Below, piece after piece: positions 8,653-64,000 of a stretch of DNA of 64,000 nucleotides. The stretch lies in NCBI GenBank assembly GCA_026770025.1, contig JAMXDE010000038.1, positions 598,257 through 662,256 of the forward strand, in the 5' to 3' direction. Both the position numbers and the translations under genes were made by a program. Numbering within the stretch: the first letter of the stretch is position 1; every line of letters begins with the position of its first letter. The notes beneath the pieces were generated by a model. The model was not told the DNA's origin, made no database searches, and was given only the letters and a program-made list of their open reading frames with translations. The DNA is from Craspedostauros australis. Lineage: Eukaryota; Bacillariophyta; Bacillariophyceae; Mastogloiales; Achnanthaceae.

Positions 8653-9089
8653 GGCCTCTAATGTACGTGTGGCAGAGAACATGGCAAGCGCAGCGTAGAG
8701 TAACACAGAACGTCGTACGTTGCGTTTACATCCTTTGGGTCGCAAGATGCTCCGTACAAAGCTCTCCAAGCTTGTTGTGCACCAGATGCTCTGTGCGCCA
8801 TCTGGGTTTCATCGATTTATGCATTTGTTGGCATTGGTACTCTGGAGTAGTATAACAATATTCATTATTGTAGAGCATAACACTATTATAAGACGTAGGT
8901 ATGGAAAGTTGCGAGCACGCCCACTCTCGCTCGGGTGAGGATCATTAGGCCTGCATGTGCTGTATGGTCTGAAGAAAGCACTCGCTATGAATGCCAAAGG
9001 TGAACACCAATGCCAGAGAGCCCTGTTTTGGAGCTGGTCTCGGTTTCCACGAATACTCTTTCTTCGCAAATCCAGTCGACGCCCTGCCT
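8653..9089. other. Spacer, no gene seen
   Basis: This is a 437-base gap between the TIR element and the stop codon of the minus-strand DUF6824 gene. Its right part is presumably that gene's 3' untranslated region. No coding or repeat signal was seen. Confidence 0.4.
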
Positions 9090-29212: not shown

Positions 29213-29660
29213 GACATTGAGCTTCGTGACTGGCATCGCGGAGATCGCCATCGTCGCCGCTCTGTTGGCAACGGATCTCCAGAACCGTGGTGTTGTATTT
29301 GCCTTTTTGGTTCATGTTCGCGAAGATTTTGGACCGTTTGTGACATCTGAGTATCTTGACGACGTCACAACATGTGATGAATAATGATTTGTCTGACGCT
29401 CGATAGACAGTTTGGAAGTGCGGACAGACGCAAAAGTGCGTGATGCAGACATGCGCTGTGTCATGTTGTATTGGAATTGTTTCGCTCGCCTGGGACACCC
29501 AACATTTTGTCCAGAAGATCCATCTTGAACGTGATTGAAAGTTGTCGACATGACATTTTCTCTCTTTTGACAGAACTGATCGAGAAAACGATAGTGTTGC
29601 TCATTTTTACTAGTTTCCAAAATTTGTGAAATAGCGGTTTCCTTGGTTGTCATCAGTTGA

Positions 29661-29792
29661 CGGAGTGAGACAAAGTTGGACAAAGTCAGACAAAGTTGGA
29701 CAGAGTGAGACAAAGTTGGACAGAACTCGGCAAAAATGGACAATAGCAAATCGACTTTGACAAAATTGGACAAAATTGGGCAAAGTCATCCA
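29661..29792 (+). repeat. 10-base minisatellite GACAAAGTTG (left array)
   Basis: About 13 imperfect copies of a 10-base unit, GACAAAGTTG with variants such as GACAAAGTCA and GACAGAGTGA. The mirror-oriented array of the same unit is at 31825-31972. Confidence 0.75.
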
Positions 29793-30617
29793 AACACAGA
29801 CATGAGCCAAGCACACGTGTAAACAAAAATGACTACGGAGACAAGTGAATTCTATTTTGCAGCGTAAATCTGTCTTAATTAGTTGTGTTACACTTCCTCC
29901 CAAGATAAACGATGAAGTTCTGATGACGAGCCTCTTGGTAGATGCGTTCCTTGAACTTCGTATGACTAAATGGAGCATACTCAGGCCAGCTTTGTTGCAG
30001 TTGGAACGGTGTTAAATGTGTGTGGCTTCCATCCTTGATAGCGTGGCAGAGAGGCATCTTTGCGACAGACACAAAATAGGCTCCCCCGGTGGTTGTGTTG
30101 CTGTCGTGGGTGGAGTTGCCCGTTGTTCACCAAGGTGTTGGATTCCATCAATCAGTGTCTGAGCTTCTTCACCATTTGCTTCCGATGATTGCAAAGCCTA
30201 GCTTCAGACTGACTGAAAACAACATCAATGGATCCTGCCAGGTGAGAATAGCACAACTCCCATGCCTCAACAGCAGCAACCTCTTCCTCTTCCACTGGCA
30301 ATGTACTAGAAAGATCCTCAAGGATGATTTCTCTTGCCTGACTTCCCCTCCATTGTGCAGTACCAGATGAAAGGAGGAGCAGAACTATTTGAAACTTGAG
30401 TTCTGGTGCATGTTCCCAACAATTCTCCCATCACTGACAAATCACAACAACAGAAGGTTATCGCATTTCACATTCACACCCCTGTATTAATGTCACAACT
30501 GGCAATCACATTCGGATTTCACATTGGTACTCATGACTCATTTGCGACCTATGAAGAAAGAAAACCAAAGTGGCTGGATCAGCTTCTCTTCTGTAGAACA
30601 GAATTCTATTTTAGACT

Positions 30618-30830
30618 TATCAGCACAAATACATATAGTGCTAAATCTCATTACTCCGGACGCCCCCACAATCTACTTATTTCACTTGTGTTTGGTTCAG
30701 CAATTGCAACGCTTGTAGCTCAATGGTAGAGCGCCAGTAATTCTCACTGAGGTTCCGAGTTTGACTCCTGGCATGGTACTTTGCTTTTGCTTTCCCCTTG
30801 TGATTTTTACGGTAGTGCTCTTTCAAGACT
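30618..30830 (+). mobile_element. 213-base tRNA-related insertion (SINE-like)
   Basis: In TIR copy 1 the sequence runs TTTAGACT directly into GCTCTG (reverse strand, near 8490-8500). In this copy the same two halves are separated by 213 bases, flanked by AGACT at 30613-30617 and 30826-30830. That gives an empty site and a 5-base target duplication. The insert contains a tRNA-like segment (30709-30782) with Pol III A- and B-box-like sequences. A SINE would normally start with the tRNA part; here about 90 bases precede it, so the class is open. Confidence 0.6.
30709..30782 (+). tRNA. tRNA-like sequence, probably a tRNA pseudogene or SINE head
   Basis: The D arm GCTC-AATGGTA-GAGC is perfect, and TAGCTCAATGG fits the A-box consensus. 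AGTTTGACTCC resembles the B box (9 of 11 positions). A T arm can be drawn (CCGAG / CCTGG) with one mismatch. The anticodon arm forms only four pairs with an irregular loop lacking U33, and the acceptor ends do not pair. It is therefore unlikely to be a working tRNA. Confidence 0.45.
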
Positions 30831-31737
30831 GCTCTGGTCTGGATGCTCTGTTGCATGTTATCGCATCACATGTTGAGACAAAAATGATGGTAGGATCATT
30901 AATGGGTGTGTCCTGAGTTGCATGCAATGCATATCTCTCTTTCTCCTCTTCATAGCCTTGTATTGTGAAATTTTTGTTGCCATGTCTTCTGTCGCAACTT
31001 TGCCACGACCAGAAGTCCAATAACAGAGGCGCAAGCACTTCGTCCCTGCTACTTCCTGGCTTGTTCAAGTCTCTCTTGCCAATATCGATGGCAGAGACTT
31101 CTTGATCACCATATCATGGAGATGGATCAGCAGTTTGCTGTCCAATAGAAGCTCCTCATGCAGTCTACACAGAACTATTGCTATGCTACATTAAGTTGGT
31201 TGGAGGCCACCAATGACATCCGCTATGGCAATCAGGAGCTCCAAAGGATGCAAAATGCGTGTTGGTCCAAGTTCCTGGTCATATCAGAGGGCACCGATCC
31301 TCAGAGAATCCAGGAACACACCATGTATGATGCATCGGATGAAATGGGCAATGAGCAAAGCTTCCTTGGCTGGACTATGAAGGGAGTCACTGCTAATTGC
31401 ACGCAAATGTCATAGATGACGTTTGCAGGCATATCCAACATTGCTTTCACTCTCTATTGCTCCATGTATCCTTCACACTAGAATGCTAGCTTCTGCTTTG
31501 CTAGCATGCCAATGCATCCATCATCAGTATGACAAAGATGACGGAACACTATTGTACATGAAGAGATATGATTGGGTGTTTATTTCGTTTCGACATGTGG
31601 AAGGTCTATTGCCGGGACTGCGACGTGAAACTCGATTGTGTTTCAATTTCCGAGGGGGGGAATTCGCATGTTGCCCCTCCAAAAATATCTCGATGAGGTT
31701 ATATTGTACTGTGGGAATTGCTATTTGTAATACAATA

Positions 31738-32742
31738 TCACTCATATCAGAGCGAAGTCGCAGGTCGATAGTCTGGAGAGAGCAACTGATTCATCGCCCA
31801 CTCTAATTTCCGTCATCAGCCTGAGTCTCACTTTGTCCGGCTTTGTCTGATTTTGTCTACTTCTGTCTGACTTTGTCTGACGCTTTCTGATTCTGTCTGG
31901 TTTTGTCTCACTTTGTCCAATTCGGTCAAATTTTGTCTGACATTGTCTGACATTGTCTGCCATTGTCCAACTCATTTTTAGGCACAATTTCGGATCTCAG
32001 ATGACAAATGCAAAGAAGCAAAAATATCCATTTTTCCATTCAAGAACAATTTCTCAGCAATAATCCTCCATTATCGAGTCCCGTAATGAGTAGTTGACAG
32101 AGAAAAACTCATGAAATGGACAATTTGTTGGGTGTCCCTGATGTTTGCTTTGGGACACTTGTTCTTCCTTGCCGTGATTGAATTCTTGGCGCTGTGACCG
32201 GGAAGCGGGTGCGGCTTTTGACGCCTTTCGGGTCGCTTTTCCTCTTTGTGTGGATGAAGACGATTGGCGGGGCGAGTGTCTCTCAATAGGCCAAGTAAAT
32301 GGGATCATGTTGCCGCTTGGACGGACCCAGAATTGGGATTCCCGTGTCATGACACTGCTGCACATTCCAGCTTCCGACATTGACCCAAGAGAGCGAAGTC
32401 ATCAAGTCCAAACGCTGACTATGCGCAAGAGCTTTCCGCCTCCCTTCACGCACAACGAAGACCACAGCGCCACCACGCCCAAACCGACATCAAGAATGAC
32501 ATCAAGACTGCCAGCAACGCCACAGCAAAGGCCATGTACGCACCTGACTCGTACATGTACTAATACACGGTCGGCGAGACCAACCACCAATCTCAGCGAA
32601 AGCGAAAGCGCCAAGCGCATGTCCTGATCACAATCTCAGGCGCTGCCACAACCGCAATCACAATTACGCCCACGATTACGCCCACCAGCCCACCAACGAG
32701 CACACTTACCAACACAAACGCAGACACGTTGAGACTCTCATC
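31738..32742. other. Spacer upstream of the STAND ATPase
   Basis: Contains the right-hand minisatellite array. The 32160-32740 part is presumably promoter and 5' leader of the + strand gene at 32743. No other gene is supported. Confidence 0.4.
31825..31972 (-). repeat. 10-base minisatellite (right array, inverted)
   Basis: About 14 imperfect copies of CTTTGTCTGA-type units, the reverse complement of the GACAAAGTTG unit at 29661-29792. Together the two arrays flank the TIR element in opposite orientation. Confidence 0.75.
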
Positions 32743-38985: not shown

Positions 38986-39783
38986 CTACTGTTCTTGTGG
39001 TTGTTCATTTGCTTGTTCGTTTTGTTGTAAGTGTTGCTGCAGTTGTTGCAGTTGTGAGTGAACTGAAGGTGAAAGTCCTCTGACGAGGGACTCCATACAC
39101 TCCAGGTGGCCACGCGTGCATGCCCAACGAAGGGGAGTTTCACCTTGGTTGTTTTGACAGTTGATGTTCGCCCCACCTGATTCGATGAGGTACTTCACAC
39201 ACTCCAGCTTGCCATTGGAGCATGCCTCATGAAGGGGAGTCCAACCATAGTTGTTTTTGCAGTTGATGTTCGCCTCACCTGATTCAATGAGGTACTTGAC
39301 ACACTCCAGGTGGCCGTTGTAGCATGCCCGATGAAGGGGAGTGGAACCTATGTTGTTTTTGCAGTTGATGTCCGCCTCACATGATTCGATGAGGTACTCC
39401 ACGCACTCCAGGTGGCCGTTGTGGCATGCTACATGAAGGGGAGTGAGACCATTGTTGTCTTTGCAGTTGACGTCGGCCCTGCATGATTTGATGAGGTACT
39501 TGACACACTCCAGGTGGCCGTTGTAGCATGTATCATGAAGGAGAGTGTCACCATCGCTGTCTTTGCAGCTGATGTCCGCCTCACATGATTTGATGAGGTA
39601 CTTGACACACTCCAGGTGGCCGTTGCAGCATGCCAGATGAAGGGGAGTCCAACCACCGATGGTTTTGAAGTTGACATCAACTCCTTCATTCTGCGTCTTG
39701 TTCTGCCTCTTCCATTCCTTCAACACTGACAAGTCACCTGCCTTGGCAGCATCAATGAGTTGTTGGTTGGTAACACTCGGCAT
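38986..39783 (-). CDS. Ankyrin-repeat protein with near-identical repeats
   Basis: 265 residues from ATG 39783 (MPSVTNQQL). The frame is open to 39969, but that part is encoded by a TATGAG microsatellite and reads as leader. Six consecutive 34-residue ankyrin repeats follow, with the invariant core NGHLECVKYLI and loops such as ANINCKNN. The DNA of the units is also very similar, so the array was amplified recently. The C-terminus is Gln-rich (LQQLQQHLQQNE) and ends at TAG. An N-terminal cap (LIDAAKAGDLSVLKEWKRQN) is present. No other domain. The BTB/BACK fragment starts 270 bases downstream on the same strand; ankyrin-BTB fusions are common, so the two may once have been one gene. Confidence 0.8.
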   Translation of the reverse strand: MPSVTNQQLIDAAKAGDLSVLKEWKRQNKTQNEGVDVNFKTIGGWTPLHLACCNGHLECVKYLIKSCEADISCKDSDGDTLLHDTCYNGHLECVKYLIKSCRADVNCKDNNGLTPLHVACHNGHLECVEYLIESCEADINCKNNIGSTPLHRACYNGHLECVKYLIESGEANINCKNNYGWTPLHEACSNGKLECVKYLIESGGANINCQNNQGETPLRWACTRGHLECMESLVRGLSPSVHSQLQQLQQHLQQNEQANEQPQEQ

Positions 39784-41820
39784 TTTGAGAGTATGGTGGA
39801 TGGTCGCTGGACGATAGACGTTGGACGATTTACGTTGGATTGGCTGTCGAGGATGTCTGTGGTCGGAGCTGCCTATGGAAGAGATATCGATGTTTGTGTA
39901 TGCAACAGCTTGTATTAGTATGAGTATGAGTATGAGTACCATACGCTGTGTGATGAATATGAGTGGCAATTCGATGTCTGTTGTTCACGCGGTTGAGTAT
40001 GGGGTTGAGTGTGGGGTTGGGTGATGTGTGTGTTGTTGTCTTGTTCGCATGGTCTCCTCCTTCTGTTTGCCTGTGTTTGTCTCCTTCTCTTGATCAAACG
40101 CGTCTGGTTCGCGCGGATTGGATCTTTCTGTTCCCATCCATCACGAAAATGCGTGCGACCAACAACAAGAAAGAAGCACCACAACAGAGTTCTCGTTTGG
40201 CCACAATCAACGCAACACCAATCCGAAGCAAACAACGTCAAAGTCTTCGGAAACACAGAGAGCTGTCATCGTCGCCACCACCGCCGCCACCACCATGTGC
40301 ACCATGGCCCACGCTTGCTTGCGTCATCGTGGCATCTGCAAGACCGCTGACCCCCGTCCGCCTGCCATTGCAAGCACCAACTTGAGGTGTGAACCAATGC
40401 CTCGAACAACCATGAAGCCACCGATGAAGCCACCGATATGACTGCCTTTGTTGGTTGCGACCCATCTCATTTGGATTTGGCTGGTTGCCATCCCACCGCA
40501 TTGCAAGCATCACCATCTGCGCAGGCAACAAGAGTCCTCAACATCCAACCAACACCACGTTGTGTATTGGGATGGGTTGGCACATTCAGCAATCAATAGG
40601 CGGAGCGATACTGTGACGCCTCCACTGTTCCTGCCGCACGGAACACCAAGACACAATACCATGCGCATTCTATCCAGAGGCATGAGCGCCATCGTCTTGG
40701 CTCGTGACTTCCAGAGCATCGATGCCCAACCGAGGCGATCGACAGGAACCTCCGTCTCATCAACGAAGTTGGGAGCATCACGAAGGAGGACATATGGGAA
40801 TATGGCGCGCATTGGCAATGGATCACTGACCGCGTGCTTCTTCTACCATATGGAACTCTGTGTCAACCATGATCCGCAGTACGGCACTCGCACTCTGCAT
40901 GGGGTTGCTTGTTGGTTTGTTGGTTGGTTTCTTCTCTTGCTCGTCAAGCTCTCTGGATGCTTGGACTGGGCTGGCTCGTCGGTTCTTGTCTTTCCGCCAC
41001 ACTGGCATTGGTCGCTTCGAAGATTGGAATGGATGGTGACCCTGGCATTTGCTGCTTCAACGGTGAGTGATCGCTCCTCCTGGGACTTGGCAAGGGTCTT
41101 GACTGCAGTGTTGGCGCAATGGCAGGAGTGCAACTCATCCAGCGACGAGGTCAATAGCGCGATACGAGACGGTCAATGGAACCGCACAGCAACCATGCTC
41201 CTCGCGGCTTCTCACCATTTCTCTCTGCCTTGTTCACCATGTGCTCTTCGTCGTCTCTTCCACAAACTTGGATCGGCTGGCATCGGCACTGTAGCTTTCA
41301 ATCTACTTGGCAGTGTGACTTGGAGTAGAGTGCACTGGGTGCGAATCCGGCGGCATGGTGACGACTGTACGGCTTGTGAAAATGCTGCTGCCATGCGTCC
41401 TCTGTCTGCGCAACGAACCAACAACGATGCTGATGGCGGAGTGTGGATGGAACCACGGACGTCCAATCTGCTCGTGAATGACATTGGCAACATCCCTGTG
41501 TGCGTATGTATTGTAGAGAGCGGACCAGACTTGTCGTACACAAGGCAAAGGCAGCATTGGAGCAGTATCCAGCCCTTCAATCTCTTGAAACATCCGGTGA
41601 CTTCATGACTGTGTTCTTTTGCACAAGCAGGGACTCAGTGCATGTGGTACTGTTCCAAACATACATAGAGAAGTACAGTCTCTTCGTAGGTGTGTTACAT
41701 GCAGGGACGTGAGTCTACCACACCTCTATGAGTATGATACGAATACAGAGCGGCCCCTCCGTCTCATTCCATCCCATCGTGTCGTGATGCATCACTGGGT
41801 GGGAGTGTTGGTACCATTAA
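39784..41820. other. Spacer with an unassigned 386-codon frame
   Basis: A + strand frame at 40448-41608 is open for 386 codons but shows no domain. In another + frame, starting at ATG 40438, two stretches read more like real protein (for example AIDRNLRLINEVGS, then ITKEDIWEYGAHWQW at about 40728-40845), interrupted by TAG and TGA. A TATGAG repeat lies at 39916-39938. I do not call a gene; a decayed gene or unrecognised introns are both possible. Confidence 0.3.
39916..39938. repeat. TATGAG microsatellite
   Basis: Four tandem copies of the 6-base unit lie upstream of the ankyrin gene, in its probable 5' leader. Confidence 0.75.
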
Positions 41821-44276: not shown

Positions 44277-44929
44277 TACCATGCCTTCGTGGTATCGGCC
44301 GTAACTCCAACCTCAATCATAGTATCTCATGAAGAACCCATAGTTAGTCCGAGATAAAATGACGTGGCACACAACCAAAACGCTCAATCATGAGCATGTA
44401 CTGCGACAGACTCTCTTTTTAGCAGTTTGGCCAAACCGTAAAAATAGACTGGCATGACTTCGAAAACTTCGAATTTCCATTTGCGTTTTGTTCGAAACGT
44501 ACTTCGCAACCAGACAGACAGACGCGCACCAAACACGATACGATTCAGTCACCCTGAATATCTCTAAGCTCGATATATTAGCGTGTGCGTCCCGTCGCGT
44601 CAAAGCCACATGGTTTGATCATGCTTGGGACTGTTTATGAAGTTGATAAATCGTTCGTTCACACATCTTGAATGCTACGAGCGGATTTTGAAACGCTTGG
44701 ACCGTGCACGAATGACGTGAACACAGGCTCTATACGCATGATGTATGCTACGATAGGGTGAGATGAAAAGGCATGCCGAAGGCACCAGCAGACTCAATGG
44801 TGGGAATAATAGTTTAAGCCGTCCGGGGCATAGTGCTAGTGGCGGAAATTGGTAACATTGTGCAGAAATTGGCTCAATGACAACACTGGCCCGGCTCCAC
44901 CAAACATTCCAATGTGTCTCTCTAGACTT
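44277..44929. other. Left flank of the satellite array
   Basis: No gene. From about 44870 the sequence begins to resemble the monomer (ACAACACTGG... then GCATGTAAATGATC) at low identity, so the last tens of bases are a degenerate edge monomer. Confidence 0.45.
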
Positions 44930-46560
44930 GCATGTAAATGATCAATGCGCGAGCAAACCAACGATGGTGGGCCATGGTATGGTCCCCAATGGGTGCGTTC
45001 CGAGTGGTTACAGGCCGTAATTACATATTTAGAGGTCACTCCGGTCATATTTGGTGATACATATGACTGTGAATATTCAGCAACACTGAATATCATGTTC
45101 TGGCCAGATGTACATGTAAAGGATCGATCCGCGAGCGCACCAACGATGGTAGGCCATGGTATGGTCCCTCATGGGTACGTTCCAAGTGGTTATAGGTCGC
45201 CAATGCATATTTAGGGGTCTCTCCGTCCAATTTGGTGATACATATGACTGTGAATATTCAGCACCACTGTATATCGTGTTCTTGCCAGATGTGTATAGGA
45301 ATGATCAATGCGCGAGCAAACCAACGATGGTGGGCCATGGTATGGTCCCTCATGGGTGCGTTCCGAGTGGTTATAGGTCGCCAATGCATATTTAAAGGGT
45401 CCTCCGGTCAAATTTGGTGATACACGCGAAGTTGAATATTCAGCGCCACTGAATATCGTGTTCTGGCCAGAAGTGCATAGGAATGATCAATGCGCGAGCA
45501 AACCAACGATGGTGGGCGATGGTATGGTCCCCAATGGGTGCGTTCCAAGTTGTTATAGACCGTAATTACATATTTAGAGGTCCCTCCGGTCCAATTTGGT
45601 GATACACGCGAAGTTGGAAATTCAGCGCCACTGAATATCGTGTTCTGGTCAGATGTGTACAGGCATCATCAATGCGCGAGCAAACCAACGATGGTGGGCG
45701 ACGGTATAGTCCTCGGTGGGTGCGTTCCGAGTGGTTATAGGTCGCCAATGCATATTTAAAGGGTCCTCCGGTCAAATTTGGTGATACACGCGAAGTTGAA
45801 TATTCAGCGCCACTGAATATCGTGTTCTGGCCAGAAGTGCATAGGAATGATCAATGCGCGAGCAAACCAACGATAGTGGGCGACGGTATAGTCCTCGTTG
45901 GGTGCGTTCCGAGTGGTTATATGCCGTAATTACATATTTAGGGGTCACTCCGGTCCAATTTGGTGATACACGCGAAGTTGGAAATTCAGCGCCACTGAAT
46001 ATCGTGTTCTGGTCAGATGTGTACAGGCATCATCAATGCGCGAGCAAACCAACGCTGGTGGGCCATGGTATGGTCCCCAATGGGTGCGTTCCGAGTGGTT
46101 ATAGACCGTCATTGCATATTTAAGGCGTCCTCCGGTCCAATTTCGTCACACACATGAAGTTGAATATTCAGCACCACTGATTATCGTGTTCTGGCCAGAT
46201 GTACATGTAAAGGATCAATGCGCGAGCAAACCAACGATAGTGGGCGACGGTATAGTCCTCGGTGGGTGCGTTCCGAGTGGTTATAGGCCGTAATTACATA
46301 TTTAAGGCGTCCTCCGGTCCAATTTCGTGATTCATATGACTGTGAATATTCAGCAACACTGAATATCGTGTTCTGGCCAGAAGTGCATAGGAATGATCAA
46401 TGCGCGAGCAAACCAACGATGGTGGGCCATGGTATGGTCCCCCATGGGTGTGTTCCGAGTGGTTATAGGCCATCATTGCATATTTATGGGGTCCTCCGGT
46501 CAAAGTTGGTGATTCATATGACTGTGAATATTCAGCACCACTGAATATCGTGTTCTGGCC

Positions 46561-48917
46561 AGATGTACATAGGAATGATCGATCCGCGAGCAAACCAACG
46601 ATGGGGGACGATGGTATGGTCCCCAATGGGTGCGTTCCGAGTGGTTATATGCCGTATTTGCATATTTAGGGGTTCTGCGGTCAAATTTCGTCACACACAT
46701 GAAGTTGAATATTCACCAACACTGAATATCGTGTTCTGGCTAGAAGTGCATAGGAATGATCGATCCGCAAGCGCACCAACGATAGTGGGCCATGGCATGG
46801 TCCTCCATGGGTGCGTTCCGAGTGGTTATAGGTCGCCAATGCATATTTAGGCGTCCTCCGGTCAAAATTGGTGATTCATATGACTGTGAATATTCAGCAA
46901 CACTGAATATCGTGTTCTGGCCAGATGTGCATACAAATCATCGATCCGCAAGCAAACCAACGCTGGCGGGCCATGGTATGGTCCCCGATGGGTGCGTTCC
47001 AAGTGGTTATAGGCCGTAATTACATAGTTAGAGGTCCCTCCGGTCAAATTTGGTGATACACGCGAAGTTGAATATTCAGCGCCACTGAATATCATGTTCT
47101 GGCCAGATGTACATAGGAATGATCGATCCGCGAGCAAACCAACGATGGGGGACGATGGTATGGTCCCCAATGGGTGCGTTCCGAGTGGTTATATGCCGTA
47201 TTTGCATATTTAGGGGTTCTGCGGTCAAATTTCGTCACACACATGAAGTTGAATATTCACCAACACTGAATATCGTGTTCTGGCTAGAAGTGCATAGGAA
47301 TGATCGATCCGCAAGCGCACCAACGATAGTGGGCCATGGCATGGTCCTCCATGGGTGCGTTCCGAGTGGTTATAGGTCGCCAATGCATATTTAGGCGTCC
47401 TCCGGTCAAAATTGGTGATTCATATGACTGTGAATATTCAGCAACACTGAATATCGTGTTCTGGCCAGATGTGCATACAAATCATCGATCCGCAAGCAAA
47501 CCAACGCTGGCGGGCCATGGTATGGTCCCCGATGGGTGCGTTCCAAGTGGTTATAGGCCGTAATTACATAGTTAGAGGTCCCTCCGGTCAAATTTGGTGA
47601 TACACGCGAAGTTGAATATTCAGCGCCACTGAATATCATGTTCTGGCCAGATGTACATAGGAATGATCGATCCGCGAGCAAACCAACGATAGTGGGCCAT
47701 GGCATGGTCCCCAATGGGTGCGTTCCGAGTGGTTATATGCCGTATTTGCATATTTAGGGGTTCTGCGGTCAAATTTCGTCACACACATGAAGTTGAATAT
47801 TCACCAACACTGAATATCGTGTTCTGGCTAGAAGTGCATAGGAATGATCGATCCGCAAGCGCACCAACGATAGTGGGCCATGGCATGGTCCTCCATGGGT
47901 GCGTTCCGAGTGGTTATAGGTCGCCAATGCATATTTAGGCGTCCTCCGGTCAAAATTGGTGATTCATATGACTGTGAATATTCAGCAACACTGAATATCG
48001 TGTTCTGGCCAGATGTGCATACAAATCATCGATCCGCAAGCAAACCAACGCTGGCGGGCCATGGTATGGTCCCCGATGGGTGCGTTCCAAGTGGTTATAG
48101 GCCGTAATTACATAGTTAGAGGTCCCTCCGGTCAAATTTGGTGATACACGCGAAGTTGAATATTCAGCGCCACTGAATATCATGTTCTGGCCAGATGTAC
48201 ATAGGAATGATCGATCCGCGAGCAAACCAACGATAGTGGGCCATGGCATGGTCCCCAATGGGTGCGTTCCGAGTGGTTATATGCCGTATTTGCATATTTA
48301 GGGGTTCTGCGGTCAAATTTCGTCACACACATGAAGTTGAATATTCACCAACACTGAATATCGTGTTCTGGCTAGAAGTGCATAGGAATGATCGATCCGC
48401 AAGCGCACCAACGATAGTGGGCCATGGCATGGTCCTCCATGGGTGCGTTCCGAGTGGTTATAGGTCGCCAATGCATATTTAGGCGTCCTCCGGTCAAAAT
48501 TGGTGATTCATATGACTGTGAATATTCAGCAACACTGAATATCGTGTTCTGGCCAGATGTGCATACAAATCATCGATCCGCAAGCAAACCAACGCTGGCG
48601 GGCCATGGCATGGTCCCCGATGGGTGCGTTCCAAGTGGTTATAGGTCGCCAATGCATATTTAGGCGTCCTCCGGTCAAAATTGGTGATACACGCGAAGTT
48701 GAATATTCAGCGCCACTGAATATCGTGTTCTGGCCAGATGTACATAGGAATGATCGATCCGCAAGCAAACCAACGCTGGCGGGCCATGGTATGGTCCCCG
48801 ATGGGTGCGTTCCAAGTGGTTATAGGCCGTAATTACATAGTTAGAGGTCCCTCCGGTCAAATTTGGTGATACACGCGAAGTTGAATATTCAGCGCCACTG
48901 AATATCATGTTCTGGCC
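46561..48917 (+). repeat. Trimeric higher-order repeat, 544-bp period
   Basis: Three 544-base units start at 46561, 47105 and 47649. A fourth unit at 48193-48917 has one extra, hybrid monomer (725 bases). The same diagnostic variants recur in order in each unit: ATTCACCAACACTG with GGCTAGAAGTG, then GCAAGCGCACC, then CGCTGGCGGGCC with a TACATAGTTAG block. The first unit and the second are the same as far as I compared; units 3 and 4 differ from them by a short block (GATAGTGGGCCATGGCATGG replacing the GATGGGGGACGATGG type). Confidence 0.9.
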
Positions 48918-49755
48918 AGATGTACATAGGAATCATCAATGCGCGAGCAAACCAACGACGTTGAGCCATGGTATGGTCCCTGATGGGTGCGTTCCGAGTG
49001 GTTATAGGCCGTAATTACATATTTAGAGGTCTCTCCGTCCAATTTCGTGATACACATGACAGTGAATATTCAGCAACACTGAATATCATGTTCTGGCCAG
49101 ATGTACATGTAAAGGATCAATGCGCGAGCATACCAACGATAGTGGGCCATGGTATGGTCCCCGATGGGTGCGTTCCAAGTGGTTATAGGCCGCCATTGCA
49201 TATTTAGGCGTCCTCCGGTCAAAATTGGTGATTCATATGACTGTGAATATTCAGCACCACTGAATATCGTGTTCTGGCCAGATGTACATAGGAATGATCA
49301 ATACGCGAGCAAGGCAACGATGGTGGGCCATGGTATGGTCCCCAATGAGTGCGTTCCGAGTGGTGATAGACCGCCATTGCATATTTAGAGGTTCTGCGGT
49401 CAAAGTTGGTGATTCATATGACAGTGAATATTCAGCGCCACTGAATATCGTGTTCTGGCCAGATGTACATGTAAAGGATCAATGCGCGAGCATACCAACG
49501 ATAGTGGGCCATGGTATGGTCCCCGATGGGTGCGTTCCAAGTGGTTATAGGCCGCCATTGCATATTTAGGCGTCCTCCGGTCAAAATTGGTGATTCATAT
49601 GACTGTGAATATTCAGCACCACTGAATATCGTGTTCTGGCCAGATGTACATAGGAATGATCAATGCGCGAGCAAATCAACGATGGTGGGCCATGGTATGG
49701 TCCCCCATGGGTGCGTTCCAAGTGATTATAGGTCGCCAATGCATATTTAAGGGAT

Positions 49756-52295
49756 CCTCCGGTCAAATTTGGTGATACATATGACTGTGAATATTCAGCG
49801 CCACTGAATATCGTGTTCTGGCCAGATGTACATGTAAAGGATCAATGCGCGAGCAAACCAACGATTGTGGGCGATGGTATGGTCCCCAATGGGTGCGTTC
49901 CGAGTGGTTATAGGCCGTAATTACATATTTAGGGGTTCTGCGGTCAAATTTGGTGATACATATGACTGTGAATATTCAGCACTACTGAATATCGTGTTCT
50001 GGCCAGAAGTGCATGTAAAGGATCGATTCGCAAGCAAACCAACGATAGTAGGCCATGGTATGGTCCCCAATGGGTGCATTCCAAGTGGTTATAGGCCGTA
50101 ATTACATATTTAGGGGTTCTGCGGTCAAATTTGGTGATACATATGACTGTGAATATTCAGCAACACTGAATATCATGTTCTGGCCAGATGTACATCGGAA
50201 TGATCAATGCGCGAGCAAGGCAACGATGGCGGACGATGATGTGGTCCCCAATGGGTGCGTTCCGAGTGGTTATAGGCCGTCATTGCATATTTAAGGCGTC
50301 CTTCGGTCAAAATTGGTGATTCATATGAAGTTGAATATTCAGCACCACTGAATATCGTGTTCTGGCCAGATGTACATGGAAAGGATCAATGCGCGAGCAA
50401 ACCAACGATAGTGGGCCATGGTATGGTCCCCAATGGGTGCATTCCAAGTGGTTATAGGCCGTAATTACATATTTAGGGGTTCTGCGGTCAAATTTGGTGA
50501 TACATATGACTGTGAATATTCAGCGCCAGTGAATATCATGTTCTGGCCAGATGTACATGTAAAGGATCAATGCGCGAGAAAATCAACGCTGGTGGGCCAT
50601 GGTATGGTCCCCGATGGGTGTGTTCCAAGTGGTTATAGACCGTCATTGCATAATTAAGCGTGACTCCGGTCAAATTGGGTCACACACATGAAGTAGAATA
50701 TTCAGCACCACTGAATATCGTGTTCTGGCCAGATGTACATAGGAATGATCGATCCGCGAGCAAACCAACGATATTGGGCCATGGTATGGTCCCCCATGGG
50801 TGCGTTCCGAGTGGTTATAGACCGTCATTGCATATTGAGAGGTCACTCCGTCCAATTTGGTGATACATATGACAGTGAATATTCAGCAACACTGAATATC
50901 GTGTTCTGGCCAGATGTACATGTAAAGAATCGATCCGCGAGCAAACTAACGATGGTGGGCCATGGTATGGTCCCCCATGGGTGCGTTCCGAGTGAATATA
51001 GGTCGCCAATGCATATTTAAAGGGTCCTCCGGTCAAATTTGGTGATACATATGACTGTGAATATTCAGCGCCACTGAATATCGTGTTCTGGCCAGATGTA
51101 CATGTAAAGGATCAATGCGCGAGCAAACCAACGATTGTGGGCGATGGTATGGTCCCCAATGGGTGCGTTCCGAGTGGTTATAGGCCGTAATTACATATTT
51201 AGGGGTTCTGCGGTCAAATTTGGTGATACATATGACTGTGAATATTCAGCACTACTGAATATCGTGTTCTGGCCAGAAGTGCATGTAAAGGATCGATTCG
51301 CAAGCAAACCAACGATAGTAGGCCATGGTATGGTCCCCAATGGGTGCATTCCAAGTGGTTATAGGCCGTAATTACATATTTAGGGGTTCTGCGGTCAAAT
51401 TTGGTGATACATATGACTGTGAATATTCAGCAACACTGAATATCATGTTCTGGCCAGATGTACATCGGAATGATCAATGCGCGAGCAAGGCAACGATGGC
51501 GGACGATGATGTGGTCCCCAATGGGTGCGTTCCGAGTGGTTATAGGCCGTCATTGCATATTTAAGGCGTCCTTCGGTCAAAATTGGTGATTCATATGAAG
51601 TTGAATATTCAGCACCACTGAATATCGTGTTCTGGCCAGATGTACATGGAAAGGATCAATGCGCGAGCAAACCAACGATAGTGGGCCATGGTATGGTCCC
51701 CAATGGGTGCATTCCAAGTGGTTATAGGCCGTAATTACATATTTAGGGGTTCTGCGGTCAAATTTGGTGATACATATGACTGTGAATATTCAGCGCCAGT
51801 GAATATCATGTTCTGGCCAGATGTACATGTAAAGGATCAATGCGCGAGAAAATCAACGCTGGTGGGCCATGGTATGGTCCCCGATGGGTGTGTTCCAAGT
51901 GGTTATAGACCGTCATTGCATAATTAAGCGTGACTCCGGTCAAATTGGGTCACACACATGAAGTAGAATATTCAGCACCACTGAATATCGTGTTCTGGCC
52001 AGATGTACATAGGAATGATCGATCCGCGAGCAAACCAACGATATTGGGCCATGGTATGGTCCCCCATGGGTGCGTTCCGAGTGGTTATAGACCGTCATTG
52101 CATATTGAGAGGTCACTCCGTCCAATTTGGTGATACATATGACAGTGAATATTCAGCAACACTGAATATCGTGTTCTGGCCAGATGTACATGTAAAGAAT
52201 CGATCCGCGAGCAAACTAACGATGGTGGGCCATGGTATGGTCCCCCATGGGTGCGTTCCGAGTGAATATAGGTCGCCAATGCATATTTAAAGGGT
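49756..52295 (+). repeat. Heptameric higher-order repeat, 1270 bp x 2
   Basis: Positions 49756-51025 and 51026-52295 are the same as far as I can compare by eye, including rare variants such as the GCGCCAGTGAATATCATG monomer and GCGAGAAAATCAACGC. Similarity resumes for about 110 bases of a third unit (to about 52404). 1270 bases equals seven monomers. Confidence 0.9.
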
Positions 52296-55200
52296 CCTCC
52301 GGTCAAATTTGGTGATACATATGACTGTGAATATTCAGCGCCACTGAATATCGTGTTCTGGCCAGATGTACATGTAAAGGATCAATGCGCGAGCAAACCA
52401 ACGATGTTGAGCCATGGTATGGTCCCCCATGGGTGCGTTCCGAGTGGTTATAGGCCGTAATTACATATTTAGAGGTCTCTCCGTCCAATTTCGTGGTACA
52501 TATGACAGTGAATATTCAGAGGCAATGTATATCGTGTTCTGGCCAGATGCACATGTAAAGGATCAATGCGCGGGCAAACCAACGATGTTGAGCCATGGTA
52601 TGGTCCCCGATGGGTGCGTTCCGAGTGGTTATAGACCGTAATTACATATTTATGGGATCCTGCGGTCAAAATTGGTGATTCAAATGAAGGTGAATATTCA
52701 GCACCACTGAATATCGTGTTCTGGCCAGATGTACATCGGAATGATCAACGCGCGAGCAAACCAACGATTGCGGGCGATGATATGGTCCCCCATGGGTGCG
52801 TTCCGAGTGGTTATAGGCCATAATTACATATTTAGAGGTCACTCCGTCCAATTTGGTGATACATATGACTGTGAATATTCAGAGGCAATGTATATCGTGT
52901 TCTGGCCAGAAGTGCATACAAATGATGGGTCCGCAAGCAAACCAACGATGGTGGGCCATGGTATGGTCCCCGATGGGTGCGTTCCGAGTGGTTATAGACC
53001 GTCATTGCATATTTAGAGGTCTCTCCGTCCAATTTCGTGATACATATGACAGTGAATATTCAGCAACACTGAATATCGTGTTCTGGACAGATGTACATAG
53101 GAATGATCAATGCGCGAGCAAGGCAACGATGGCGGACGATGATGTGGTCCCCAATGGGTGCGTTCCGAGTGGTTATAGACCGTCATTGCATATTTAGGGG
53201 TTCTGCGGTCAAATTTGGTGATTCATATGATGGTGAATATTCAGCACCACTGAATATCGTGTTCTGGCTAGATGTACATAGGAATGATCAATTCGCGGGC
53301 AAACCAACGATGGGGGACGATGGTATGGTCCCCAATGGGTGCGTTCCAAGTGGTTATAGGCCGTAATCGTATATTTAGAGGTCACTCCGTCCAATTTGGT
53401 GATACATATGACAGTGAATATTCAGCACCGCTGAATATCGTGTTCTGGACAGAAGTGCATACAAATGATGGGTCCGCAAGCAAACCAACGATGGTGGGCC
53501 ATGGTATGGTCCCCCATGGGTGCGTTCCGAGTGGTTATAGATCGTCATTGCATATTTAGAGGTCACTCCGTCCAATTTCGTGATTCATATGACTGTGAAT
53601 ATTCAGCAACACTGAATATCGTGTTCTGGCCAGAAGTGCATAGGAATGATCAATGCGCGAGCAAACCAACAATGGGCGACGATGGTATGGTCTCCAATGG
53701 GTGCGTTACGAGTGGTTATAGGTCGTAATTACATATTTAGAGGTCACTCCGTCCAATTTGGTGATACACATGAAGTTGAATATTCAGCGCCACTGAATAT
53801 CGTGTTCTGGACAGAAGTGCATAGGAATGATCAATACGCGAGCAAACCAACAATGGTGGGCCATGGTATGGTCCCCCATGGGTGTGTTCCGAGTGGTTAT
53901 AGGCCATCATTGCATATTTATGGGGTCCTCCGGTCAAAGTTGGTGATTCATATGATGGTGAATATTCAGCACCACTGAATATCGTGTTCTGGCCAGATGT
54001 ACATAGGAATGATCGATCCGCGAGCAAACCAACGATGGTAGGCGATGGTATGGTCCCCCATGGGTGTATTCCGAGTGGTTATAGACCGTCATTGCATATT
54101 TAAGCGTGCCTCCGTCCAATTTCGTCACACACATGAAGTTGAATATTCAGCACCACTGAATATCGTGTTCTGGCTAGATGTACATAGGAATGATCAATGC
54201 GCGAGCAAACCAACGATGGTGGGCCATGGTATGGTCCCCCATGGGTGTGTTCCGAGTGGTTATTGGTCGTAATTACGTATTTATAGGATCCTCCGGTCAT
54301 ATTTGGTGATTCATATGACTGTGAATATTCAGCGCCACTGAATATCGTGTTCTGGCCAGATGTACATAGGAATGATCAATGCGCGGGCAAACCAACGATG
54401 GGGGACGATGATATGGTCCCCAATGGGCGCGTTCCAAGTGGTTATAGGCCGTAATTACATATTTAAGGCGTCCTCCGGTCCAATTTCGTGATACACATGA
54501 AGTTGAATATTCAGCACCACTGAATATCGTGTTCTGGCCAGAAGTGCATAGGAATGATCAATACGCGAGCAAACCAACAATGGTGGGCCATGGTATGGTC
54601 CCCCATGGGTGTGTTCCGAGTGGTTATAGGCCATCATTGCATATTTATGGGGTCCTCCGGTCAAAGTTGGTGATTCATATGATGGTGAATATTCAGCACC
54701 ACTGAATATCGTGTTCTGGCCAGATGTACATAGGAATGATCAATACGCGATCAAACCAACGATGGGGGACGATGGTATGGTCCCCAATGGGTGCGTTCCA
54801 AGTGGTTATAGACCGCCATTGCATATATAGAGGTTCTGCGGTCAATTTTGGTGATTCATATGATGGTGAATATTCAGCGCCACTGAATATCGTGTTCTGG
54901 ACAGATGTACATACAAATGATCAATGCGCGAGCAAACCAACAATGGTGGGCCATGGTATGGTCCCCCATGGGTGTGTTCCGAGTGGTTATAGGCCATCAT
55001 TGCATATTTATGGGGTCCTCCGGTCAAATTTGGTGATTCATATGACTGTGAATATTCAGCACCACTGAATATCGTGTTCTGGCCAGATGTACATAGGAAT
55101 GATCAATACGCGAGCAAGGCAACGATGGTGGGCCATGGTATGGTCCCCAATGGGTGCGTTCCGAGTGGTGATAGACCGCCATTGCATATTTAGAGGTTCT

Positions 55201-55989
55201 GCGGTCAAAGTTGGTGATTCATATGATGGTGAATATTCAGCACCACTGAATATCGTGTTCTGGCTAGATGTACATAGGAATGGTCAATGCGCGAGCAAAC
55301 CAACAATGGGGGACGATGGTATGGTCCCCAATGGGTGCGTTCCGAGTGGTTATAGGCCGTCATTGCATATTTAGAGGTCTCTCCGTCCAATTTGGTGATT
55401 CATATGACTGTGAATATTCAGAGGCAATGTATATCGTGTTCTGGCCAGAATTGCATAGGAATGATCAATGCGCGAGCAAATCAACGATGGTGGGCCATGG
55501 TATGGTCCCCAATGGGTGCGTTCCGAGTGGCTATAGGCCATCATTGCATATTTATGGGGTCCTCCGGTCAAATTTGGTGATTCATATGACTGTGAATATT
55601 CGGCAACACTGAATATCGTGTTCTGGCTAGAAGTGCATAGGAATGATCGATCCGCGAGCAAACAAACGATGGTGGGCCATGGTATGGTCCCCCATGGGTG
55701 CGTTCCAAGTGGTTATAGGTCGCCAATGCATAGTTAAGGCGTCCTCCGGTCAAATTTGGTGATTCATATGATGGTGAATATTCAGAGGCAATGTATATCG
55801 TGTTCTGGCCAGATGTACATAGGAATGATCAATGCGCGAGCAAATCAACGATGGTGGGCCATGGTATGGTCCCCCATGGGTGCGTTCCGAGTGGTTACAG
55901 GCCGTCATTGCATATATAGAGGTTCTGCGGTCCAATTTGGTGATTCATATGACTGTGAATATTCAGCACCACTGAATATCGTGTTCTGG

Positions 55990-57000
55990 CCAGATGTACA
56001 TAGGAATGATCAATATGCGAGCAAACAAACGATGGTGGGCCATGGTATGGTCCCCGGTGGGTGCATTCCGAGTGGTTATAGGTCGTAATTACGTATTTAT
56101 AGGATCCTCCGGTCGAATTTGGTGATTCATATGAAGTTGAATATTCAGCACCACTGAATATCGTGTTCTGGATAGATGTACATAGGAATGGTCAATGCGC
56201 GAGCAACCCAACAACGGGGGACGATGGTATGGTCCCCAATGGGTGCGTTCCGAGTGGTTATAGGTCGCCAATGCATATATAGAGGTCTCTCCGTCCAATT
56301 TGGTGATTCATATGATGGTGAATATTCGGCAACACTGAATATCGTGTTCTGGCTAGAAGTGCATAGGAATGGTCAATGCGCGAGCAAACCAACGATGGTG
56401 GGCCATGGTACGGTCCCCAATGGGTGCGTTCCGAGTGGTTATAGGTCGCCAATGCATATATAGAGGTCTCTCCGTCCAATTTGGTGATTCAAATGAAGGT
56501 GAATATTCAGCGCCACTGAATATCGTGTTCTGGCCAGATGTACATAGGAATGATCAATGCGCGAGCAAACCAACGATGGTGGGCCATGGTATGGTCCCCA
56601 ATGGGTGCGTTCCGAGTGGTTATAGACCGCCATTGCATATTTAGGGGTCACTCCGTCGAATTTGGTGATTCATATGACAGTGAATATTCAGCACCGCTGA
56701 ATATCGTGTTCTGGCTAGAAGTGCATAGGAATGGTCAATGCGCGAGCAAACAAACGATGGTGGGCCATGGTATGGTCCCCGGTGGGTGCATTCCGAGTGG
56801 TTATAGGTCGTAATTACGTATTTATAGGATCCTCCGGTCGAATTTGGTGATTCATATGAAGTTGAATATTCAGCACCACTGAATATCGTGTTCTGGATAG
56901 ATGTACATAGGAATGGTCAATGCGCGAGCAACCCAACAACGGGGGACGATGGTATGGTCTCCAATGGGTGCGTTCCAAGTGGTTATAGGCCGTCATTGCA
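55990..57000 (+). repeat. Tetrameric higher-order period, 725 bp
   Basis: The block at about 56016-56236, with GGTGGGTGCATTCCG, ACGTATTTATAGGATCC, TTCTGGATAGATG and CCCAACAACGGGGG, recurs 725 bases later at 56741-56961. A similar 724/725-base spacing links the segments at about 53940 and 54660. The intervening monomers are less alike, so this is an older or partial higher-order repeat. Confidence 0.7.
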
Positions 57001-58325
57001 TATTTTGGGGTTCTGCGGTCAATTTTGGTGATTCATATGACAGTGAATATTCAGCACCACTGAATATCGTGTTCTGGCCAGAAGTGCATAGGAATGACCA
57101 ATGCCCGAGCTAACCAACGATGGTGGGCCATGGTATGGTCCCCAATGGGTGCGTTCCAAGTGGTTATAGGTCGCCAATGCATATATAGAGGTCTCTCCGT
57201 CCAATTTGGTGATTCAAATGAAGGTGAATATTCAGCGCCACTGAATATCGTGTTCTGGCCAGATGTACATGTAAAGGATCAATGCGCGAGCAAACCAACG
57301 ATAGTGGGCCATGGTATGGTCCCCCATGGGTGCGTTCCAAGTGATTATAGGTCGCCAATGCATATTTTGGGGTTCTGCGGTCAATTTGGTGATACATATG
57401 AAGTTGAATATTCAGCAGCACTGAATATCATGTTCTGGCCAGAAGTGCATAGGAATGATCAATGCGCGAGCAAACCAACGATGGTGGGCCATGGTATGGT
57501 CCCCCATGGGTGCGTTCCAAGTGGTTATAGACCGCCATTACGTATTTAGAGGTCCCTCCGTCGAATTTGGTGATTCATATGAAGTTGAATATTCAGCACC
57601 ACTGAATATCGTGTTCTGGCTAGAAGTGCATAGGAATGATTAATGCGCAAGCAAACCAACAATGGTGGGCCGTGGTACGGTCCCCAATGGGTGCGTTCCG
57701 AGTGGTTATAGGTCGCCAATGCATATTTAAGGGATCCTCCGGTCAAATTTGGTGATACATATGACAGTGAATATTCAGCGCCACTGAATATCGTGTTCTG
57801 GCCAGAAGTGCATAGGAATGGTCAATGCGCGGGCAAACCAACGCTGGTGGGCCATGGTATGGTCCCCGATGGGTGCGTTCCGAGTGGTTATAGGCTGCCA
57901 TTGCATATTTAGGGGATCCTGCGGTCAAATTGCGTCACACACATGAAGTAGAATATTCAGCACCACTGAATATCGTGTTCTGGCTAGATGTACATAGGAA
58001 TGATCAATGCGCGAGCACACCAACGATAGTAGGCCATGGTATGGTCCCCCATGGGTGCGTTCCGACTGGTTATAGGTCGCCAATGCATATTTAAGCGTGC
58101 CTCCGGTCAAATTTCGTCACACACATGAAGCTGAATATTCAGCGCCACTGAATATCGTGTTCTGGCCAGAAGTGCATACAAATCATCGATCCTCAAGCAA
58201 ACCAACGATGGTGGGCCATGGTATGGTCCCCGATGGGCACGCTCCGAGTGGTTATAGGTCGCCAATGTATATTTAGGGGTCACTCCGGTCCAATTTGGTC
58301 ATGCACGCAACGGTGAATATTCAGC

Positions 58326-58480
58326 TCCTCGGTGTTTCGCGATTTTGCTACTCATGCATGGGAATGACCAGTCCGAAGGCATGCAACCGATTGGGACCCA
58401 TCCAAGGCCTTTCCGTCGGCATATTCCGTGGGTGTGTACGCTTTCTTTTCTTGCGTAAGGGGTTGAAACCTTCATGTTCC
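58326..58480 (+). repeat. Degenerate monomer at the right edge
   Basis: After GTGAATATTCAGC the sequence keeps monomer landmarks only loosely (CATGCATGGGAATGACCAGT, then AAGGCATGCAACC and GGGACCCAT). It then loses similarity near 58450. Confidence 0.55.
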
Positions 58481-59184
58481 TCGTACACACGATGACACCG
58501 ATCGTCGAACGCCACTGTGGGTCAAACCGGCCTATATCTGCACTGCACTGATCAATTTGGAGGAATGAAATCATCTTGAGCTTATCCTTGGACCTCTCCC
58601 GGACACTTTCCATGTGGTTATTTGCTGCATTTGCATCTTCGAATACCGGCTCCTTCAAACTTTGCATTCATGTGACACCATCCAGGAACTGCCAACATGA
58701 ACCATATCTGAACAAATCCCCATTGGAATCATCAATCTCAGGACGTCCATCAAACTGTGTTGTATGCAGGGGGCGCTCATAGGTGTATCAACGCCCTTGA
58801 TCTGCTCCTGAAGCCTCCGCAAAGACCTGAATGGTTGGATACCCATACCCATATCAGCATGTGCATAGCCTGCAACCTCAATGCCTCTCGGACGGATGGA
58901 TGCACCAATGTAGGCTGATCTGAGCCAGTCTACAGCAACAAAACGCAAGCAATACTTTGATGCGTATTGGCACTATCATCGGGCATATGCGAGTACGAGC
59001 CGTCCCGATCGACCACGTCCATGCATGGCACAGTGCCCGATCGTATTTTGTGAACGCATGCGGCAAAGTTGTGGGAGTCGATGGAGTTGTCAGTAATCCG
59101 TGACTGGGGACTCGATGAAAGATACCAATCAACAAATGGCGCCATCACCAACCTCGCCCCGAAAATTGCAACTCCCTCCATCAT
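58480..59184 (-). pseudogene. Decayed ORF next to the satellite
   Basis: Three minus-strand frames read like pieces of one protein. They are 59184-58930 (SRITDNSIDSHNFAACVHKI and PCMDVVDRDGSYSHMP), 58948-58655 (FVAVDWLRSAYIGASIRPRG and RSLRRLQEQIKGVDTP) and 58667-58480 (EPVFEDANAANNHMESVRER). Frame changes separate them. I recognise no family; position and decay suggest a transposon-type gene. Confidence 0.3.
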
Positions 59185-62242: not shown

Positions 62243-63580
62243 TTAGCTAATCCAATGCGTTGGCGTATCTCTACTGCCACTGCGCCGCATCGTTTCAGTC
62301 CGTACTCGCCGCCACTGCCAAGACCACCTCCCCAGCACCATCTTGTCCCATCCAATCTTGCCTTGCGCCATCGATGCTCTGTGCACATCAGACCACCCTT
62401 GCGGTTCCGTCTCGCGCTGTTCTGTCCACATTCGCACCTGTCGCACGATCTCTTGTACCATTTGCGGATCCCCCTCGTCCATTCTCATCGCGTGCGCCCA
62501 CTTCTTCAAAGCAGCATGCCTCACGCGCATCGCAGCAGGATGCTGACACTGCATCACATGCGCCTTCATCTCTTCCTCTGTTTTGCATACCAGGCATAGG
62601 CCATCGCTCCAGAATTTCCACTTCCGCATATTCCTGCCGACCGGTCCGAAATGCGCCGCGTGCTTCACCACTTATCGTCGCCTTCCATTCTCCAGCCCAT
62701 GCATCGCCGCTCGTATAGAATGGCCGTCGACGTCAGCCATCTCCTCCCAGTCCATTTTGCCTGTCCTGCTCTGCCACTGCTTGGTTTTCTGCCACTGCAC
62801 GTGTTCCCACAGAATATCCTTCGTGCTCGCGCAAGCCTTCTCTCCCCCTATCCACACTGGCCACTCATCTCCATGCAGTTCCTCATCACGCTCCGGACCG
62901 TTCCGTCTCTACTCCGCTCCCGCCATTTTGTCGACATCGTCGTTCCAGTGCGATGATCGACCATCTGAATACCTGCGATACTATACTGCGATCATCTCTC
63001 TTTCACATGCCACCGATCACACGCATATTGGCGACCGCCACCACATTCGTTCAAATTCGCCACACCAATCAATCATCCTGCTCCCACTACGGATTCCAGA
63101 TGATGTGCGCCCTCTGGAAATGGCCAATAGCCCGAACACAAACGATCAAAGGTAACAATCATGTTCAATGATGGCACTACCCATACATGGGTCGCCCTGC
63201 TCGTTCGCGTCCTCATTCCACTCTGGTCAAGTCTCATCTGTCTGCCTACACTGTAGCTGATCCGCTCAATTATGTACAATAGGGTGGGACACAATCCATT
63301 GCGCTTGGAGCAGCGCTGATATGTCGGTCGTATCGGTGCTCCGCTCGATTGGTGTCTCCTTTTCGTCCTGCTCTACTCCCCACACTGCAGTCGACCATTT
63401 TCTGGAGTCGACCCATGGGCGAAAGATGACGGAAACAAGAGACGACGGCGACACACAAAACTCGGATCGGATCCACAACAAAACTCCTCCAATCGCCGTG
63501 CGCATCCTCACTCTCCTCAGTTCTGGGACATCATGGCCGATTCCCGTCGCATGGAATACAATCCAAAGCAGAGAAAGCAC
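62243..63580 (-). pseudogene. Degenerate retroelement C-terminus (zinc-motif / RNase H-like remnant)
   Basis: The clearest part is 62671-62243. It has a Cys-x2-Cys...His-x4-Cys pattern (CLVCKTEEEMKAHVMQC) followed by a helical region with QGKIGWDKMVLGRWSWQWRR. That pattern is typical of the post-RNase H zinc segment of LINE-like elements in stramenopiles. The same frame continues upstream past one TAA (62857-62672: VQWQKTKQWQSRTGKMDWEE). Further upstream, 63580-63266 (LSLLWIVFHATGIGH) could be the RNase H remnant, in another frame. Several stops and shifts show it is dead. Assignment to a family is by eye only. Confidence 0.4.
63395..63464 (+). repeat. Direct repeat, left copy
   Basis: The sequence beginning CCATTTTCTGGAGTCGACCC is repeated from 63937 to the window end (at least 60 bases, identical as far as visible), 542 bases away. 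Confidence 0.85.
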
Positions 63581-63850: not shown

Positions 63851-63936
63851 AGTGTTATCAGTACAATAGCGATGATGTTGTGGTGAGCAGTCGCGAAAAC
63901 GCTCTGTGATGGCTGTGCGCGTCATGCTTTTGTCCG

Positions 63937-64000
63937 CCATTTTCTGGAGTCGACCCATGGGCGAAAGATGACGGAAACAAGAGACGACGGCGACACACAA
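63937..64000 (+). repeat. Direct repeat, right copy, cut by the window end
   Basis: Matches 63395 onward up to the last base of the window. The true length is unknown. Confidence 0.85.

Follow-up and report, generated by a model that had tools for sequence, protein, structure and literature searches.

The window analysed here, a 64-kb stretch of contig JAMXDE010000038.1 (positions 598,257 to 662,256), contains a single large tandem array built of a repeat of about 181 bp. Tandem Repeats Finder (TRF) located this array with a period of 181, 73.8 copies and 85% matches (Table 1), and no other large array was detected in the window. With an anchor pattern, 74 monomers were recognised, all on the plus strand and arranged head-to-tail, and each of the 73 spacings between them measures 180–182 bp. 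On the two strands of the window, the anchor has no match on the minus strand or outside the array, and a monomer profile finds no convincing copy away from it in the window (best E, 0.099, at 30886). An 18-base core of the monomer gives 65 matches vs. none in each of 100 shuffled sequences; the array is therefore not a product of chance. An earlier note on this DNA had described about 74 uniformly oriented head-to-tail monomers of ~181 bases over 13.4 kb, which TRF and the anchor pattern confirm, and had seen in them a satellite with a near-nucleosomal monomer, for which the ~181-bp unit and its regular spacing speak.

Pairwise identity of the monomers averages 0.85 and ranges from 0.70 to 1.00. 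The GC content of the array is 47%, vs. 53% in the rest of the window. There are no open reading frames (ORFs) of at least 200 aa within the array, and the longest stop-to-stop frame seen in it is 161 aa. A passage of PMC7290008 gives the usual length of satellite monomers as about 150–500 bp, and the element, a long, non-coding, head-to-tail array with a monomer in this range, belongs to satellite DNA. The ratio of observed to expected CpG is 0.93 in the array vs. 0.95–0.97 in the flanks, and 4 of the 83 rare variants are at CpG (18 of the 181 positions are CpG). Decay through CpG deamination or a process like repeat-induced point mutation was rejected, since neither measure gives a signal of it. 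As for the 10-bp periodicity of WW (A or T) steps, the harmonics of 10.1 and 10.7 bp rank second and third of the 16 tested, a ranking made without a control.

The arrangement of the monomers is monomeric. Mean identity is almost the same for neighbouring and for distant monomers (lag 1, 0.854; lag 39, 0.843), and it rises slightly at lags 2–4, 6, 7 and 9. Because this profile is nearly flat, there is no array-wide higher-order repeat (HOR), that is, no multi-monomer unit recurring with high identity. What can be found are local blocks. Thirteen exact repeats of at least 130 bp are present in the array; the longest spans 1381 bp at an offset of seven monomers (1270 bp), while two others, of 905 and 596 bp, are offset by three monomers (544 bp) and belong to a trimer present about four times. 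Copies of single monomers are also among the local duplications. Such blocks are the reason for the near-identical pairs: a partner at 99% identity or more exists for 30 of the 74 monomers and one at 97% or more for 34, which leaves 40 monomers without a partner at the latter level. The near-identical blocks are thus recent local duplications. The several kinds of HOR proposed in the earlier note hold up as duplications of three, seven and single monomers, but not as an array-wide period. Its comparison with the architecture of alpha satellite is not borne out, given the monomeric organisation, the near-flat lag profile and decay on one side only.

The main new property of the array is the mosaic composition of its monomers. 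Linkage between variable alignment columns was computed on 54 of the 74 monomers, 20 near-identical copies having been dropped. The r2 value is 0.217 for columns 1–5 bp apart, 0.098 at 6–10 bp, 0.043 at 11–15 bp and 0.02–0.04 beyond, and the mean for permuted columns is 0.019. In 836 of the 2346 pairs of two-state, non-singleton columns, all four combinations occur. Monomers share variants, which are nevertheless reassorted on a scale of about 10–15 bp; this short scale follows from the fact that, within the monomer, r2 approaches the permuted level in about 15 bp.

The two edges of the array differ. Monomer 1 is 93% identical to the consensus, and the 425 bp to the left of it align to the monomer with a score of 28, which is equalled by 14 of 300 shuffles (about 5%), so there is no clear relic there. 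The left edge is sharp or nearly so, although a faint remnant may exist. Visible decay is found at the right edge only, where monomer 74 has fallen to 79% identity with the consensus and is followed by a relic that extends to about 58736. The relic has a local alignment score of 54.5, whereas 300 shuffles reach 31.5 at most, and a piece of it at 58602–58676 is recovered by the monomer hidden Markov model (HMM) with an E value of 0.022. The degenerate monomers that the earlier note had placed at both edges are accordingly present on the right, where no shuffle equals the relic, but not clearly so on the left.

Table 1. Features of the satellite array and its edges (positions in the window)
Feature	Position	Strand	Basis
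Satellite array, 74 monomers, mean pairwise identity 85%	44937..58325	+	TRF, anchor, alignment
Left junction; monomer 1, 93% to consensus, without clear relic	44926..44940	+	
Dyad example in monomer 1, alignment columns 135–155	45073..45093	+	Position read by eye
Trimer block, monomers about 10–22; exact 905 and 596 bp at offset 544 (46551–48608), with an extra exact monomer-length copy at 48753–48933	46551..48933	+	
Seven-monomer exact tandem duplication, monomers 28–34 = 35–41, 1381 bp at offset 1270	49755..52405	+	
Last recognisable monomer (74), 79% to consensus	58185..58365	+	
Decayed monomer relic beyond the array	58529..58736	+	Local alignment vs. shuffles, HMM

The evolution of such an array was simulated with a few models that were not fitted to the data. 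The rule used in the simulation scripts kept 53 of the 74 monomers, and the observed values taken for comparison are an r2 of 0.042 at 11–15 bp and 33 near-identical pairs. Under crossing-over alone (three block sizes, 4 runs each), r2 at this distance is 0.22–0.27 and 94–199 near-identical pairs are formed; in these models, the linkage under crossing-over alone stays too high. In the same comparison, the three settings with 20-bp conversion tracts gave an r2 of 0.03–0.05, one of them with 0.05, 28 pairs and an identity of 0.84. A series of tract lengths (8 runs each) yielded r2 values and pairs of 0.04 and 23 for 5 bp, 0.06 and 33 for 10 bp, 0.05 and 21 for 20 bp, 0.11 and 37 for 50 bp, and 0.19 and 70 for 181 bp. 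A pool of 500 monomers with crossing-over alone showed an r2 of 0.22, 126 pairs and an identity of 0.79; when 30% long-range duplication was added, 8 runs gave 0.13 and 76 pairs, which supersede 4 earlier runs (0.17, 105 pairs). Among the models tried, short-tract conversion added to crossing-over performs best, and no setting reproduces every statistic.

We interpret the array as non-coding monomeric satellite DNA maintained by exchange, and assign this reading a probability of roughly 0.6. Misaligned copies and unequal crossing-over would let the array grow and shrink, leaving the exact blocks of three and seven monomers, while frequent short gene-conversion tracts would spread and reassort the variants. 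The right edge may have dropped out of this exchange and would now be decaying. The chromatin formed on the array is probably silent and evenly spaced, and the repeat sequence as such would have no specific task. Several points weigh against this interpretation. Two of the three 20-bp settings bring identity down to 0.75 and 0.79, and their near-identical pairs (1 and 8) are too scarce. In the series of tract lengths, the conversion rate was lowered as the tracts became longer, and because the two are confounded, tract length is not estimable from it. At 1–5 bp, r2 is 0.22 in the data vs. 0.09–0.14 in the 5-, 10- and 20-bp runs; the 50-bp runs fit at this distance (0.205) but miss at 11–15 bp (0.107). 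Invariant columns make up 25% of the data vs. a mean of 46% in the conversion runs, each of the 40 exceeding the data. The wider genome pool, as a possible partner in exchange, is represented only crudely, by the 500 monomers and 30% long-range duplication mentioned above, and the array may have some function after all.

For at least about 5 kb to either side of the array, none of the frames tested is a recognised gene; farther to the left, the sequence carries genes. Of the frames listed within 5 kb, ten ORFs were tested, 3 left of the array and 7 right of it. None gave a Pfam match above threshold; seven had no match of any kind, and three have sub-threshold matches, of which the most telling is zf-RVT, a zinc-binding piece of reverse transcriptase, at 62243–62671 on the right (E, 0.015). 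These results bear on the decayed genes and elements that the earlier note had seen in the flanks. From 5 kb leftwards, 8 of the 10 long frames tested match Pfam, with HA, DUF6824, dynamin, ankyrin, GST and AAA_16 domains, and the nearest frame ends at 39969. The HA and DUF6824 domains, which are presumably tied to diatoms, make a diatom genome plausible. In a collection of viral contigs, the AAA_16 ORF has no match, and the HA-domain ORF has 274 pattern matches and no relatives. Rfam gives no hit above its gathering score in the window, hence no rRNA, and there are no tRNAs. A transposon origin of the whole array was considered and rejected: blastn between the left flank (4.9 kb) and the right flank (5.3 kb) gives a best E value of 0.20.

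Other repeats are scattered over the window. An element of 1.1 kb at 7557–8660 has perfect 24-nt terminal inverted repeats (7557–7580 and 8637–8660), and an inverted relative is located about 22 kb away, at 30459–31716, with pieces 80–84% identical; the two are likely a pair of DNA transposons. Short tandem repeats of 10 to 40 bp occur at 29655–29742 and 31825–31967, near one of these transposon-like copies. Two related minus-strand ORFs (21029–22069 and 27271–28629) have no Pfam match at an E value of 0.001 and share DNA stretches that are 74–78% identical. An ankyrin-repeat ORF on the minus strand (38986–39969) holds a tandem array with a 102-bp unit at 39085–39674. At the right end of the window, a 69-bp direct repeat, 97% identical, is found at 63390–63458 and 63932–64000 with a spacing of 542; the window end cuts it off.

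The monomer consensus contains a dyad, ATATTCAG and CTGAATAT, with 8-bp arms separated by 5 bp. When the consensus is shuffled by mononucleotides, 10 of 500 sequences contain a dyad of at least 8 bp. In the array, 57 of the 74 monomers keep all eight pairs. Conservation of the arms is 0.977 vs. 0.903 overall, the second highest of 162 placements with the same geometry. In 22 of 40 neutral simulation runs, however, an equally conserved stretch with matching geometry appears somewhere in the monomer. Dyad conservation alone is for this reason no evidence of selection; selection on the dyad is not needed as an explanation, and we treat the dyad as a lead.

The first alternative would make the array a present or former centromere, or a pericentromeric satellite, of its chromosome. 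CENH3 nucleosomes would then be phased by the 181-bp unit, and exchange would keep the monomers alike; a retired centromere surviving as divergent monomers would be a variant of it. The nucleosome-scale monomer, its single orientation, the occurrence of one block in 64 kb, recent local expansion, the conserved 8-bp dyad and a GC content lower than that outside are all consistent with this, and a passage of PMC9859433 describes a precedent for the retired form, human centromere 2, which persists as 41 kb of divergent monomers. The near flanks can be read both ways: the lack of a recognised gene among the ten ORFs and, on the right, the sub-threshold piece of a reverse transcriptase would suit a pericentromere, but domain-bearing frames begin 5 kb leftwards, and the tested context within 5 kb is neutral on the question. 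Against a centromere, an array-wide HOR is absent and decay is seen on one side. In addition, the proposed centromeres of Phaeodactylum are marked by minimum GC, according to a passage of PMC9266582, whereas the GC minima of the window, calculated over 100, 500 and 1000 bp, are all outside the array (over 500 bp, the lowest value is 0.40, near 29.5 kb, vs. 0.44 inside), so that a search for minimum GC within the 64 kb would not select it. On balance, we find a present or former centromere unlikely. Slightly more doubtful is the broader proposal that a diatom or a close relative has satellite centromeres, with one 181-bp array per chromosome in which conversion over very short tracts, and not HOR amplification, would keep the monomers uniform.

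A subtelomeric satellite was considered because TTAGGG is present on the plus strand in 16 of the 74 monomers (one copy occurs in the rest of the window) and because the brown alga Ectocarpus has such a satellite, with a monomer of ~98 bp carrying TTAGGG (a passage of PMC11541908). TTAGGG is also given as the telomere unit of two diatoms in part of PMC8329260. But 58 of the 74 monomers are without the motif, which sits in the least conserved of the tabulated stretches (columns 91–105, 0.80) and by a rough estimate would occur by chance in about 9% of 181-bp units, and TRF at its score threshold reports no telomeric array in the window; a subtelomeric nature seems improbable. A functional protein-binding array built on the dyad, acting as a regulatory, replication or recombination element, would agree with the geometry of the arms, their rarity in shuffles and their conservation; since neutral runs equal that conservation so often, we hold it to be, if anything, more improbable still. 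Least credible is an assembly error inflating or misjoining part of the array, chiefly the exact blocks of three and seven monomers. Perfect identity across 1381 bp is what such an error could produce, but both ends of the array enter sequence without mutual blastn similarity, and most of the array is resolvable because 40 of the 74 monomers lack a 97% partner. Satellite DNA maintained by exchange remains the preferred explanation.

Several known systems can be compared with this satellite by their descriptions. Primate alpha satellite, as passages of PMC9859433 present it, is likewise head-to-tail, with a monomer of 171 bp there and about 181 bp here, and it too includes divergent monomeric stretches; in its kinetochore-bearing arrays, however, a HOR unit recurs hundreds to thousands of times, in contrast to the brief local blocks and one-sided decay within 13.4 kb seen here. 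The centromeres of Phaeodactylum tricornutum, possibly of the same broad group of organisms, are described in parts of PMC7082073 and PMC9266582 as short, AT-rich and non-repetitive and were found by minimum GC, whereas here there are tandem repeats with 47% GC, which is not the window minimum. Satellites in a stramenopile are known from Phytophthora parasitica, where PpSat1 and PpSat2 are reported and the mean monomer of PpSat2 is 142 bp (a passage of PMC7290008). The Ectocarpus satellite carries three TTAGGG per monomer and lies at chromosome ends, as stated in the excerpt of PMC11541908, while here the motif is confined to a minority of monomers. In Pleurosigma pacificum, tandem repeats form a noted share of the genome and average 34.5% GC, lower than here; the passages of PMC12803021 concerned describe neither a monomer nor a centromere. 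With this example, a tandem array in a diatom is in itself no novelty. Among the titles and abstract openings listed from open-licence literature on diatom centromeres and satellites, there is no diatom centromeric satellite, which is no proof of absence, and in a word look-up of the diatom genome papers PMC5124317, PMC12803021, PMC8329260 and PMC7466962, as far as their text was covered, the words "satellite" and "centromer" do not occur.

The 18-base core was also compared with two contig collections. It has no match in the viral one and 16 single matches in the prokaryotic one, close to the roughly 15 that chance alone predicts. At these 16 places, the monomer HMM aligned over 18–39 bp each, with a best E value of 0.0027. 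Given the chance-level number and the short alignments, these matches were rejected as relatives and taken as chance. Neither collection is eukaryotic, and for this reason the core searches say little about the spread of the satellite.

The array is complete and small and is most likely an ordinary satellite upheld by exchange. If it marks centromeres, satellite centromeres would be added to a group that has so far been described with short, low-GC ones. If it does not, it is still a small satellite seen in full, with expansion blocks, fine mosaicism and one-sided decay all legible, and it would serve as a useful test case for satellite evolution in an algal genome.

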